DNA of 64,000 bases from Longimicrobiales bacterium (GCA_029245345.1 JAQWPM010000012.1:434001-498000); one strand, 5' to 3'; shown: positions 43,796-48,004, counted from the stretch's first letter. Notes: generated by a model not told the origin, from the sequence alone. Translations and numbers: made by a program.

Positions 43796-45274
43796 CTACA
43801 CGTACGGGTACAGGTTCAGCTTCCCCGGATCACACAGACCCGCCGGGTTGAAGGGCTCGATATCGACGCGCACGCGCTCAGCAAAGTTGGCGGCGGCCTC
43901 AGGCTCCGCCGGCCCGTCACTCGTCAAATTCAAAACGTCCAAGTACGCCGAATGGACGCGTGACCGGAACTCGTCGTCGTGCGTGAACAGGAACCCATCT
44001 GAGGGCTCGGCCTCGCCCTTCTCCCGCCGAACCTCACTACAGATCGCGCCTGCGAAGTAGTACATGCTGAACGCGGATAGCACAGAAAAGGAGTTGAAGG
44101 CGGAGTAACTTCCATGGATGAGAGCGTCGAGGAAGTCGATCTCTCGCTGGAGCGCCTCGTCGTACCGTGAGAGGGCACTCGCGATCTTCTCCGTATTCGG
44201 CCAGGACTCGAACATTCGAGCGATCCGTTCCACACCGAAGAGCGTGTGGGCATTCCCAGGACTGAGGAACGGGTCGATGAAGTAGGCAGCTCCCGGAAGG
44301 AGCACCCAGTCCGGCCCCGCAGCGGGTCGAAGGCGCCGCTGAAGCAGCCCGGTCCGCGCCAGGGGCCGAAGCGATCGAGCTTCCGCCATCTGGACTGAAA
44401 CGGACGGATACCGCCCGAGCAGCCGGCTCCATTCCTCTTCGGCTGGCAGGCCGGTCTCGTCCGAGGTGAGCAGAGCCCCCACGCTCGTCACTCCATGATC
44501 GAAGCGGAGCATCCACATCCAGCCCTCCGGCAAGACGTGGTGGAGCGCCGCGTCGTCCGAGGGAAACGGATGGGGCCCGGTATTCCCACCCACTGATTCG
44601 TAGACGTCCGCCCAGGGCTTCACTCCCTCGAAGTGAGCGAAGAGCGCCCGGGAGCTGGTAGCAAGCGTAGCCCGATCGTCCTTCAGACCAAGCGCTCCGG
44701 GAATGGGACTCCCACCGCCCGACCCATCGATGACGAAGTCCGCCCGGAGCGTCCGAACCGAACCGTCACTGGCCCTGACACCCAGGCGCCACCCCTGATC
44801 ACGCCGGGCCTCGACCACCTCAGTTGCTTCGAGTACTTCGACGCCACGGGACCTCGCTCGCTCCGCGAAAAAGCCGTCGACGTCTGAGCGGAGCCATTGA
44901 GTGTCCGCCTCGGCCTCTGACGGACTCGCGGCCACGAGCAATTCGTTGGACCGGTCATCACAGGGCGCGAAGGGCTTCCCTGCTCGGTGCGCAAAGAAGC
45001 TGAACCCACGTTTTGGGCCTACTCCGACTTCGGGGTGCTCCTCCTTCCACGTGCCGTATCGCGTGAGGGGATGCAGTTCATCGAGCCCATACCGATTCGC
45101 GAGATCCCGGAGCACCCAATTCGCGAGCGGGGTCGACGATTCCCCGATGGCAAACCGAGGATGGGTCTCTCTCTCGATGACAACGACGTCCCGGCCCTGA
45201 TCCGCCAGGCACATCGCGACTAGGGTGCCTCCGAAGCCACCGCCGATCACCACTACATCACAGATGTCAGTCAT
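43796..45274 (-). CDS. Flavin-dependent halogenase-like monooxygenase
   Basis: The 492-residue FAD protein has a dinucleotide motif at residues 11-16 (GGGFGG) and the halogenase-type GESSTP at 44-49. Lys88 (GPKRGFSFF) aligns by position with the catalytic Lys of tryptophan/phenol halogenases. The WxWxIP motif is partly kept as WMWMLR (252-257), and FIDPFLSPG (332-340) fits the FxxPxxSxG halogenase signature, with Leu where tryptophan halogenases have Glu. It may halogenate or hydroxylate an aromatic or enzyme-bound substrate and would need a flavin reductase encoded elsewhere. It follows the radical SAM gene by 3 bp. Confidence 0.8.
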   Translation of the reverse strand: MTDICDVVVIGGGFGGTLVAMCLADQGRDVVVIERETHPRFAIGESSTPLANWVLRDLANRYGLDELHPLTRYGTWKEEHPEVGVGPKRGFSFFAHRAGKPFAPCDDRSNELLVAASPSEAEADTQWLRSDVDGFFAERARSRGVEVLEATEVVEARRDQGWRLGVRASDGSVRTLRADFVIDGSGGGSPIPGALGLKDDRATLATSSRALFAHFEGVKPWADVYESVGGNTGPHPFPSDDAALHHVLPEGWMWMLRFDHGVTSVGALLTSDETGLPAEEEWSRLLGRYPSVSVQMAEARSLRPLARTGLLQRRLRPAAGPDWVLLPGAAYFIDPFLSPGNAHTLFGVERIARMFESWPNTEKIASALSRYDEALQREIDFLDALIHGSYSAFNSFSVLSAFSMYYFAGAICSEVRREKGEAEPSDGFLFTHDDEFRSRVHSAYLDVLNLTSDGPAEPEAAANFAERVRVDIEPFNPAGLCDPGKLNLYPYV

Positions 45275-45277
45275 CGC

Positions 45278-46243
45278 TCACGTGCCGCACGCGCACACTA
45301 TGCGTCCCAGGACCTGCTGGGTGTGGTTTAGCGTCCGCAGGCGATCGACCCGAGCTGCCAGACAGTCTGGACACGCTGCGATTCGGTCGACGTCCCACAG
45401 GTCCGCGAACACCCTGCCCTTACCGAGCCCCACGCAGTGGTCCGCAACCTCTTCGAGCGAAGCGAGCGAGGGCTGCGCGAATTCGCCCGAGGCGGCCAGG
45501 GCATCCAGCGCTCCATTCCCCGCTCGGGTCGGTATCACCGAGCAGCATTCGACCCCCACTGAAAACGCCCACTCGACGGACCGACACGCCCACTCGACCC
45601 CCTCTTCCTCCGTCATGAAGGGCGCACGCACGAGGACGAACGCGCGCACGTTGATATCAACGGTGAGCAACTTCGCCGTGGCTGATTCGAAGTCATCCGC
45701 GGTCATCCGCTTGTTGAGACGAGGAAGCACATCCGGGTGAATCGTCTCGAGGCCCATCGCCACATCGACGTTCGTGCCGGCGGTGTCCCTCCATCCCGCC
45801 ACGCGGTCGTCTACAAGATTGGGGTGATTCTCGAGCACTACGGTCTCGAAGCCGCCAACACGGGCCGCAACGGCCGCGCGATCTTCCGGCGTGATCGCCC
45901 TATCGTCGAAGAAGTTGCCAGCGTTGTAGAGCTTCACGTGCCTGATGTCAGGCATCATCGCGAGCGCTGTTTCGACCTGAGCGTCGACGGCGCCCAAAGG
46001 GACCGATTCATCCGTCGTGTACTGCCACAAGTCGCACATGAGGCACGTGAACGGGCACTCACGGTTGGTGATGAACACGGTGCCGGTCGGGTCGACGGAC
46101 CCACCACGACTGAGTTCGTCCTCTACCTCGAAGGCATAGGGCTTCCACGCATCGAGATCAGGCTTCGGACTTCTGAGCGAACGAATCCAGCTGTTCGTCT
46201 CCGCGCTCGACATGTCCGGCGGCATCGAAGTCGGCTCAGCCAT
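45278..46243 (-). CDS. Radical SAM protein, COG1244/RaSEA-like
   Basis: The product has 321 residues. The 4Fe-4S cluster motif is CPFTCLMC (Cys63, Cys67, Cys70). VKLYNAGNFFDDRAI, VVLENHP and GLETIHPDVLPRLNKRMTADDF resemble the archaeosine radical SAM enzyme RaSEA and its bacterial relatives. The C-terminus has extra cysteines (CPDC and the final CAC) that could hold a second metal centre. It should generate a 5'-deoxyadenosyl radical; the substrate is unknown. It lies 3 bp before the halogenase-like gene and 20 bp after the asparagine-synthetase-like gene. Confidence 0.85.
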   Translation of the reverse strand: MAEPTSMPPDMSSAETNSWIRSLRSPKPDLDAWKPYAFEVEDELSRGGSVDPTGTVFITNRECPFTCLMCDLWQYTTDESVPLGAVDAQVETALAMMPDIRHVKLYNAGNFFDDRAITPEDRAAVAARVGGFETVVLENHPNLVDDRVAGWRDTAGTNVDVAMGLETIHPDVLPRLNKRMTADDFESATAKLLTVDINVRAFVLVRAPFMTEEEGVEWACRSVEWAFSVGVECCSVIPTRAGNGALDALAASGEFAQPSLASLEEVADHCVGLGKGRVFADLWDVDRIAACPDCLAARVDRLRTLNHTQQVLGRIVCACGT

Positions 46244-46263
46244 CGCGCTGGGGTCCGGCCCGA

Positions 46264-47595
46264 CTAGTCGTAGAGCGCTGCGAACGCCCGCCGGTATTCC
46301 AGCGGATCACTCGGGAAGGCCGACCCGAACGTGTCCTCGCCAACCGCACCGTGCTGGAATCGGCACTTCTCGAAGACCGGCATGTCGAGTCCGGTAACGG
46401 CCTTGATTCCTGCAGCGACGAAGCGGCCTTTCAGCTCGTAGAGTTTCTCGTGATCCCAATCAGTCCATTCGATGAACGGGATCGACTCAGCCACACGGAT
46501 CACCTGTGGCTGTGTGAACGGGCTGAAGCCATTGAAGCCCTCCGTGGCGGCCGGTGCGTAGGTACGCGAGTAGCTACGACTCAGTCCTCCGCTGTACGTC
46601 TGGGAGTGCTTGATGCTGTGCACGCCCCACCCTTCTTGGTACAGCATGGAGTTGTTGAGCACGGAGCGAATCGTCAGCTCTGGGTTCTCCTCGATGGGAT
46701 AGTCCTTGAGGTTCTCGTCACCTCCGTCGCCGTCCAGCAGGTGCTTCCAGTCTGGGTAGCGCTCACGGATGCCGCGCACGAGTGCGAGACCCATGGTCCC
46801 GGCCTCAATGTCGAGGGGTTTGTAGTCCTCCACGACCTTGATGGTCTCCCGCCAATCGAGGTCCTGGCTCCCCACCTCGATCGCCTCGTGGAAGACAGCC
46901 ATATCGAGCTGTTCGAGGAACGAGCGCGCACGCTCGACATCGGCTCCCCCGCCATCGACGGAGAGTGTGAATGCCTTCAAGCGCTGAGGGGCCTCACCGC
47001 GCTCTAAGAGGGCCTGACGAGCCAACAAGAAGATCGCCCCGGAATCGATACCACCTGAGAAGCACACACCGAGCGGGCCTTCCGCAGCCTGATGGTCGAG
47101 CCACTTCTTCACTTCTTCATAGGCGGCCCGGATGTACCGCTCGCCCAAGGTCTCGAGGTCGTCGGTCGCTGTGCCCTTAGGCGGATCGAAGAAACGCTCG
47201 AACGTCGGGATCGGATCGGGGCACCCGAGCAGTTGGATCTCAGTCACGTAGTGAGCCGGCACCATACGCGTGTAGTACGGGTGGAATTGATTCGCCATGT
47301 CATTGTCGGCAAGCCAGGCGTGAATCGTGTCCACACGGTCTGCGACGACGAGGCACGGGCCGTCCACAAGCTTTGCGATGAAGTGCCTGAGGGGCCGATC
47401 CATGGACCGAGCGAGCCGGACCTTGATGCCATCGACAGTGACGAGCGCGAAGGAGCCGTCGATGGTCTCTACGGCTTCTGCAGGACCGGTGCGGACGAGC
47501 TCACGAGCTTGATCGACCGTCAGGTTGAAGATGACGTTCTTGTCAGGGTCAGTGAGGTCGACGACGCGGTTCAGTGGGACATTTCTAGCGTGCAT
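46264..47595 (-). CDS. Asparagine-synthetase-like ATP-dependent ligase without active glutaminase
   Basis: The product has 443 residues. The synthetase domain has the PP-loop FSGGIDSGAIF (about residue 180), then LSVDGGGADVERA and LLDGDGGDENLKDYP, which fit AMP-forming asparagine-synthase chemistry. The N-terminal region keeps the fold of an Ntn glutaminase (DGSFALVTVD, MDRPLRHF) but starts MHARNV and lacks the Cys at position 2, so it cannot use glutamine that way. It resembles amide-bond-forming relatives such as beta-lactam synthetase. It probably joins an amine to a carboxylate in a pathway with the radical SAM and halogenase-like enzymes. Confidence 0.82.
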   Translation of the reverse strand: MHARNVPLNRVVDLTDPDKNVIFNLTVDQARELVRTGPAEAVETIDGSFALVTVDGIKVRLARSMDRPLRHFIAKLVDGPCLVVADRVDTIHAWLADNDMANQFHPYYTRMVPAHYVTEIQLLGCPDPIPTFERFFDPPKGTATDDLETLGERYIRAAYEEVKKWLDHQAAEGPLGVCFSGGIDSGAIFLLARQALLERGEAPQRLKAFTLSVDGGGADVERARSFLEQLDMAVFHEAIEVGSQDLDWRETIKVVEDYKPLDIEAGTMGLALVRGIRERYPDWKHLLDGDGGDENLKDYPIEENPELTIRSVLNNSMLYQEGWGVHSIKHSQTYSGGLSRSYSRTYAPAATEGFNGFSPFTQPQVIRVAESIPFIEWTDWDHEKLYELKGRFVAAGIKAVTGLDMPVFEKCRFQHGAVGEDTFGSAFPSDPLEYRRAFAALYD

Positions 47596-47633
47596 AACAG
47601 TTCAGTTTCGGTGTGCGTTCCAGGTTGTATCTG

Positions 47634-48004
47634 CTACCCGCCGAGCACCTCGACGAGCCGTGCTTCAGTGCGGTCGAGCAGGTCGTAACACTCCGAGCTG
47701 GTCCATTCAAAAACAGAACAGAAGCGGACGACCCAGGCGAAGCGTCGGTAGAATCCAAGCGCACTCAGCACGGCGGTATCGTCACTGTCGACGAGTTGAC
47801 CCGACTCCAGGACCACACCTCCGACAAAAAATGGAGGGAGATCGGCGCGCTCGACGATGAACGGGGCCAAGTAGTTTCGTGTGACCTCGGCATATCCATC
47901 TTCGATGCTCTTGAAATTTGCGACCTCACTGGGCCAGCGAGCGATGAGTTGCCGCAGTTCGGCGTCAGGGAAGGCTCTGCAACGCTTTCCCGAAGCTCCG
48001 TCAT
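47634..48004 (-). pseudogene. Small gene with apparent frameshift at the head of the halogenase cassette
   Basis: A coding-like frame from about 47990 to 47634 reads FPDAELRQLIARWPSEVANF, IEDGYAEVTRNYLAPFIVERADLPPFFVGG, then FYRRFAWVVRFCSVFEW and ends LVEVLGG. It has no ATG, GTG or TTG until residue about 35. An ATG at 48004 in the next frame gives MTELRESVAEP, which joins the coding frame if one base is inserted near 47975. Either the gene is frameshifted or it uses an unusual start. The product would be about 120 residues and soluble; I recognise no family. It lies 38 bp before the ligase. Confidence 0.5.

Follow-up and report, generated by a model that had tools for sequence, protein, structure and literature searches.

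A compact cassette of three genes in a Gemmatimonadota-like genome encodes what is apparently an undescribed combination of known enzyme families, one that is both real and conserved. The genes, termed ASN, RAS and HAL here, are predicted to encode an amide synthetase resembling AsnB and beta-lactam synthetase, a radical SAM relative of the archaeosine enzyme RaSEA, and a FADH2-dependent flavoprotein of the phenolic-halogenase type. ASN-RAS-HAL is a real unit beyond chance, as judged from motifs that are invariant in 12 to 52 homologues and from near-perfect adjacency of the genes in different phyla. Because the enzyme set is compact, co-evolving and phylum-crossing, it provides good evidence for a selected, undescribed function, and its genomic context points to an exported redox system. 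A preliminary description of this DNA named no described pathway with exactly this trio. Our searches agree, in that no NCBIfam model names the ASN-RAS pair and a literature search for the three-gene combination found no paper.

The cassette resides on contig C12 of genome G000, to which bins labelled Gemmatimonadales or Gemmatimonadetes are the closest named relatives, within the 64,000-nucleotide stretch of DNA that was analyzed (hereafter the window, from whose first letter all coordinates are counted). Its gene order is ASN (46264-47595, 443 aa), RAS (45278-46243, 321 aa) and HAL (43796-45274, 492 aa). All three are on the minus strand, and we recover the gaps described previously for these co-directional genes: 20 bp between ASN and RAS and 3 bp between RAS and HAL. 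The surrounding genes, which encode a large hydrolase-like protein upstream and outer-membrane-like, NUDIX-like and DUF5916 proteins downstream, are conserved in close relatives and look unrelated to the cassette. Searches for RNA elements gave zero Rfam matches, PADLOC models for anti-phage defence gave no match at E 0.001, and ASN has no match in a plasmid collection.

A fourth, small gene was previously proposed to lead the trio, and this part of the description must be withdrawn. The ORF in question (47765-48004) has no counterpart in 145 relatives, and its frame is a non-coding one, with a GC content by codon position of 0.44/0.62/0.68 compared to about 0.65/0.44/0.76 for local genes. An overlapping frame (47634-47870) exhibits coding-like values of 0.68/0.43/0.70, and it too has no match in any of the 145 relatives. 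At the corresponding position, a genome of the same genus carries an unrelated small ORF and two genomes of genus g20 carry none. Thus, the codon pattern and the lack of a counterpart in relatives rule out the small ORF as a precursor or cassette member. The region 47634-48004 holds an orphan ORF with coding-like codons whose apparent start region lies in another frame (MTELRESVAEPSL), and this is possibly a frameshifted, lineage-specific gene. The search for a conserved small peptide among the flanking genes of relatives also came up empty at the loci tested: no cluster of small ORFs is common to more than three of them, and those found resemble shadows of other genes. Thus, no conserved RiPP precursor was found beside the modifying enzymes at these loci, although one encoded at a distance may exist.

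The distribution of the genes supports the unit. Ten of the 146 related genomes carry an ASN orthologue, nine of these also carry RAS, and HAL is present in all 10 plus two others. In the single ASN genome without RAS, ASN sits at a contig end, and wherever the contigs of relatives are long enough, the three genes lie side by side. The joint co-occurrence search recommended in the preliminary description associates ASN with both partners at about 1e-13 each (Fisher tests across the 146 relatives, kinship ignored; 1.5e-13 for ASN-RAS and 7.5e-14 for ASN-HAL). None of the three proteins falls in a housekeeping family, and the family models match only at the superfamily level, far below curated cut-offs. 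Thus, neither of the outcomes that the preliminary description named as refuting, rare adjacency in related genomes or an unrelated housekeeping role, was observed.

A wider scan of species genomes revealed ASN relatives in 519 stretches. The best 80 of these 519 are mostly from Bacteroidota, with others from Planctomycetota, Gemmatimonadota, Calditrichota, Fidelibacterota and additional groups. RAS is located downstream of ASN on the same strand at 84 of the 87 loci with enough DNA left (82 of 85 genomes, as two genomes were counted twice), and the ORFs usually overlap. At two loci (L038:9397-9628 and L046:9663-10104), an ORF judged by eye to be PIN-domain-like is inserted between ASN and RAS. 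HAL is the third gene in 17 genomes, which belong to Gemmatimonadota, Planctomycetota, one Calditrichia bin (Calditrichota) and one Bacteroidota bin. No HAL was found in the remainder of the genome in 49 genomes that carry ASN-RAS without an adjacent HAL. The core unit is the ASN-RAS pair, and HAL completes the unit in Gemmatimonadota and Planctomycetota.

The presence of HAL can be explained by two changes on the ASN tree, where a large, well-supported Bacteroidota clade has only ASN-RAS. Loss of HAL in this clade is the simplest reading because the HAL-bearing loci are spread across deep branches. Pairwise distances for ASN, RAS and HAL correlate at 0.90-0.92 across 16 genomes, with none of 2000 permutations as high. 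Furthermore, both the ASN and HAL trees join the family of the window with L034 (Calditrichota), L040 (Planctomycetota) and L064 (another Gemmatimonadota bin), and both place a second Gemmatimonadota group apart from this family, such that phylum borders are broken in the same manner. The correlated distances and the matching cross-phylum groupings therefore indicate that the trio very probably has moved horizontally as a unit, among at least four bacterial phyla.

The halogenase features noted previously for HAL, namely FxxPxxSxG, GESxxP and Lys88 in an FAD protein, are all present, in addition to a GxGFxG motif. Specifically, the homologue alignment places GESSTP at residues 44-49 (45128-45145, minus strand) and FIDPFLSPG at residues 332-340 (44255-44281, minus strand), where S338 and G340 are invariant and D334 and P335 are nearly so. 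Lys88 (45011-45013, minus strand) resides in the invariant motif KRGF and is found in 12 of 12 homologues. It aligns with Lys87 of PltM and Lys98 of CtcP, the catalytic residue that is among the defining features of these phenolic halogenases (PMC6424973, PMC12400496). The HAL family profile matches CtcP at 8e-71 over its full length and PltM at 1e-69, and the match to Pfam Trp_halogenase is 1e-15. These matches, together with the catalytic Lys, GxGxxG, GES and FxxPxxSxG motifs, identify HAL by sequence as a PltM/CtcP-type flavin enzyme. Unlike PltM and CtcP, HAL is partnered by ASN and RAS without surrounding PKS or NRPS genes, and its family carries an invariant C-terminal GLxxPxxxxxYP and has GWxWxLxF in place of WxWxIP. 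Both Trp residues of the latter motif are retained in nearly all members, and IP is changed to LR or similar.

Two HAL-related loci merit separate mention. In G130 (C8:61072-62619), the HAL match is in two pieces separated by a small gap inside an open frame of 593 codons, and this gap is an insertion or a divergent stretch. In another relative (L153, G109:C223), a CtcP-like halogenase that is less closely related (32% identity) lies between polyketide-synthase-like genes.

ASN matches Pfam Asn_synthase (PF00733) at 3e-14 and, as described previously, is an asparagine-synthetase-like ligase that lacks the glutaminase Cys. There is no N-terminal Cys or Met-Cys start, and homology begins about 70-110 residues into AsnB (near residue 113 of the AsnB profile). 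The MC, HRGPD and NGEIYN motifs of a glutamine-dependent AsnB are consequently missing. Alignment and structure prediction (AF2, pLDDT 88.9) concur on an AsnB-type fold whose predicted glutaminase half is truncated and degenerate, with its catalytic motifs gone. The PP-loop SGGIDS at residues 180-185 (47041-47058, minus strand), an ATP-pyrophosphatase motif that aligns with LSGGLDSS of AsnB, is intact, and S180, G182, D184 and S185 are invariant in a 52-sequence alignment. Foldseek ranks beta-lactam synthetase (1mc1/1jgt, E 8e-14) as the best match to the ASN model, followed by AsnB, TsnB9 and carbapenam synthetase. Thus, ASN resembles beta-lactam and carbapenam synthetases in its predicted two-domain fold, its SGGxDS loop, its conserved C-terminal Lys region and its lost glutaminase function. 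It differs from them in having only about 17% identity, in its family motifs GCPDPxP, EDYKPLD and KHSxTYSGGxSR, in the absence of a surrounding beta-lactam cluster, and in Asp290, which replaces the conserved Glu of the AsnB GEGxDE motif.

RAS was described previously as RaSEA-like, and this assignment is supported by a match to TIGR01210 at 4e-25, though the 88.7 bits lie under the family cut-off of 212.15 and leave RAS outside RaSEA proper. Its membership in the radical SAM superfamily rests on a Pfam score of 29.9 bits (cut-off 29.5), a predicted radical SAM barrel (AF2, pLDDT 95.4) and the CX3CX2C [4Fe-4S]/SAM motif CPFTCLMC at residues 63-70 (46034-46057, minus strand). The Cys triad of this motif (C63, C67 and C70) is invariant in 48 sequences. 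A sequence search against solved structures gave no match for RAS, and Foldseek places the predicted model near the Elp3 radical SAM domain and queuine lyase.

What the preliminary description overlooked is the company that the cassette keeps, namely CRTAC1/UnbV propeller proteins, multiheme cytochromes and genes resembling those for hydrazine synthase (HZS). CRTAC1/UnbV proteins are encoded in 60 of 60 ASN genomes examined, 10 in the class and 50 outside it. Within the class, UnbV is found in 10 of 10 ASN genomes versus 58 of 136 without ASN (p 3e-4; p 8e-8 for copy number; kinship ignored), and outside the class in 50 of 50. Similarly, a multiheme cytochrome is found in 9 of 10 ASN genomes versus 17 of 136 others (p 4e-7, kinship ignored). 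Outside the class, 35 of the 50 ASN genomes have HZS_alpha (PF18582), compared to 0 of 9 Gemmatimonadota ones. The constant presence of CRTAC1/UnbV proteins in cassette carriers suggests an undescribed pathway.

At a typical Bacteroidota locus, a CRTAC1/UnbV protein of about 555 aa is encoded upstream of ASN-RAS, and the pair is followed by more CRTAC1 genes, HZS_alpha-like and HZS beta-gamma-like genes, ABC binding proteins, or a multiheme cytochrome. PF18582 and HZS beta-gamma-like genes lie downstream of ASN-RAS-CRTAC1 at L046, L047, L056, L058, L063, L066, L073, L090 and other loci. Among cultured carriers, Maribacter luteus and M. aquimaris have ASN-RAS adjoining CRTAC1 genes (L095, L108). 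HZS-homologue clusters that include genes for CRTAC1 and ABC binding proteins were described in 2025 (PMC12758564), and the terms asparagine (synthase) and radical SAM do not appear in the main text of that paper. Many Bacteroidota loci resemble these clusters in their kinds of genes, with CRTAC1, HZS-alpha-like and HZS-beta-gamma-like genes directly adjoining ASN-RAS, and the genome of the window differs from them in that no HZS_alpha was found there.

Among the Gemmatimonadota, G098, G121, G130 and L064 have cytochrome genes, CRTAC1 genes or both next to the cassette. In the genome of the window, the CRTAC1 and cytochrome genes are on a contig other than that of the cassette. One gene cluster there (G000:C21:250001-270000, L154), unlinked to the cassette, combines several CRTAC1/UnbV genes, whose products measure about 580-1300 aa, with genes for a TPR protein and a multiheme cytochrome. 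In most Planctomycetota loci, the cassette stands alone. Because of this and the lack of linkage in the window's genome, the CRTAC1 association is perhaps ecological or phylogenetic and not functional.

An FkbO/Hyg5-family chorismatase is encoded beside or near ASN-RAS and CRTAC1 at L048, L066 and L073, and elsewhere in such genomes in unrelated contexts. DAHP synthase genes are near ASN-RAS in a few Bacteroidota loci. From these neighbours, an aromatic acid is a weak candidate for the substrate. The case for a chorismate-derived compound is likewise weak, since only 16 of 50 Bacteroidota-type genomes encode the chorismatase, its gene seldom neighbours the pair, and no Gemmatimonadota relative has a match above cut-off.

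What, then, might the three enzymes do together? Our best explanation, which we advance tentatively, is a small-molecule pathway that combines amide ligation, radical processing and phenol halogenation to serve an extracytoplasmic redox system. ASN would use ATP to convert a carboxylate to an acyl-adenylate and join it to an amine other than ammonia derived from glutamine. By analogy with ArcS and RaSEA, RAS would then employ a 5′-deoxyadenosyl radical to transform or cleave the ligated amine part, and HAL would chlorinate or brominate an electron-rich phenol ring on the same substrate. The product would serve, or be handled by, CRTAC1/UnbV propellers together with multiheme cytochromes or HZS-like proteins, with which the cassette is associated genomically. 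Most Bacteroidota carriers would have a form of the pathway without the halogenation step. There is neither a carrier protein nor a conserved precursor peptide nor an assembly line nearby, which makes a small molecule that diffuses freely the most likely substrate. The absence of any precursor-making or export gene conserved with the cassette is odd for a secondary metabolite and counts against this explanation. At the level of enzyme families, profiles and predicted folds are consistent with the amide formation, radical modification and halogenation envisioned previously, whereas the hydroxylation offered as an alternative is less favoured.

If HAL were a hydroxylase, the product would be a catechol- or quinone-like redox molecule, and the pathway above would otherwise be unchanged save for its last step. 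Halogenation by HAL is uncertain because GWxWxLxF stands where WxWxIP is expected throughout the family, and a redox-active phenol would fit a cytochrome-linked role. Nevertheless, a halogenase is favoured because phenolic halogenases match HAL over its full length, the C-terminal substrate region included, and because the catalytic Lys is invariant; the corresponding K87A mutant of PltM is inactive (PMC6424973). We therefore consider a hydroxylase unlikely. Far more improbable is a chance run of genes without common function in a fragmented metagenome assembly. The window does stem from an assembly of many contigs, and the small ORF ahead of the trio lacks conservation, but such a run is refuted by adjacency in independent assemblies of several phyla, by co-inheritance and by the Fisher tests.

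The main rival is protein maturation, wherein the trio would act in the cytoplasm on a protein awaiting export (a CRTAC1/UnbV propeller, cytochrome or HZS-like subunit) and modify its residues, thereby yielding a protein-derived redox cofactor. A precedent is offered by QhpD, which is a radical SAM enzyme, and QhpG, a flavin monooxygenase resembling halogenases, which together mature a periplasmic quinohemoprotein amine dehydrogenase. The best NCBIfam match of HAL is QhpG, a protein-modifying enzyme, although at 5.8e-20 and 71.6 bits versus a cut-off of 240 HAL falls well outside that family. The cassette also differs from the Qhp system in its additional AsnB-like synthetase and in lacking a quinohemoprotein subunit gene. 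Maturation is a serious rival because the cassette can stand alone, as would suit an unlinked protein target, and always co-occurs with CRTAC1 proteins, whose genes are often directly upstream of ASN; multiheme and MauG-like domains are also encoded near the loci. Against it, the HAL profile matches the small-molecule halogenases CtcP and PltM far better, and the Pfam matches of RAS include no peptide-recognition or SPASM domain. On balance, we regard maturation as rather doubtful. Modification of a nucleoside or tRNA, with ASN and RAS acting on a nucleobase as ArcS and RaSEA do and HAL oxidizing it further, is very improbable. RaSEA is the named family closest to RAS, whose nearest structural matches include Elp3 and queuine lyase. 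Moreover, ArcS uses lysine rather than ammonia, attaching it first and only in complex with RaSEA (PMC11298593), after which RaSEA leaves the nitrogen behind, and a glutaminase-less ASN paired with RAS may parallel this transfer with a nitrogen source other than glutamine. In contrast to that system, the cassette ligase is AsnB-type and by family models unrelated in sequence to ArcS, the hosts are bacteria, RAS scores well under the RaSEA cut-off, and no tRNA-guanine transglycosylase partner is present at the locus. The genomic companions of the cassette are exported proteins rather than RNA or queuosine genes. Flavin halogenases are not known to act on RNA.

Within the small-molecule pathway that we prefer, the product could be a new, horizontally spread redox cofactor or electron carrier for an as yet unrecognized machinery outside the cytoplasm that comprises CRTAC1/UnbV propellers and multiheme cytochromes or HZS-like complexes, and this more specific proposal is, in our estimation, unlikely to be correct. 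Such a cofactor would be a radical-processed aromatic amide that is halogenated in some phyla. If true, it would provide a function for the very widespread orphan CRTAC1/UnbV family and for the hydrazine synthase relatives of organisms that do not perform anammox. The ASN-RAS pair may also represent a new form of nitrogen supply, in which a synthetase without a glutaminase attaches an amine that a radical SAM enzyme then trims. The constant companions of the cassette, the CRTAC1/UnbV proteins, multiheme cytochromes and hydrazine-synthase homologues, are themselves unexplained exported proteins. Identification of the product would thus open both questions, that of the role of the cassette and that of the exported proteins that accompany it.
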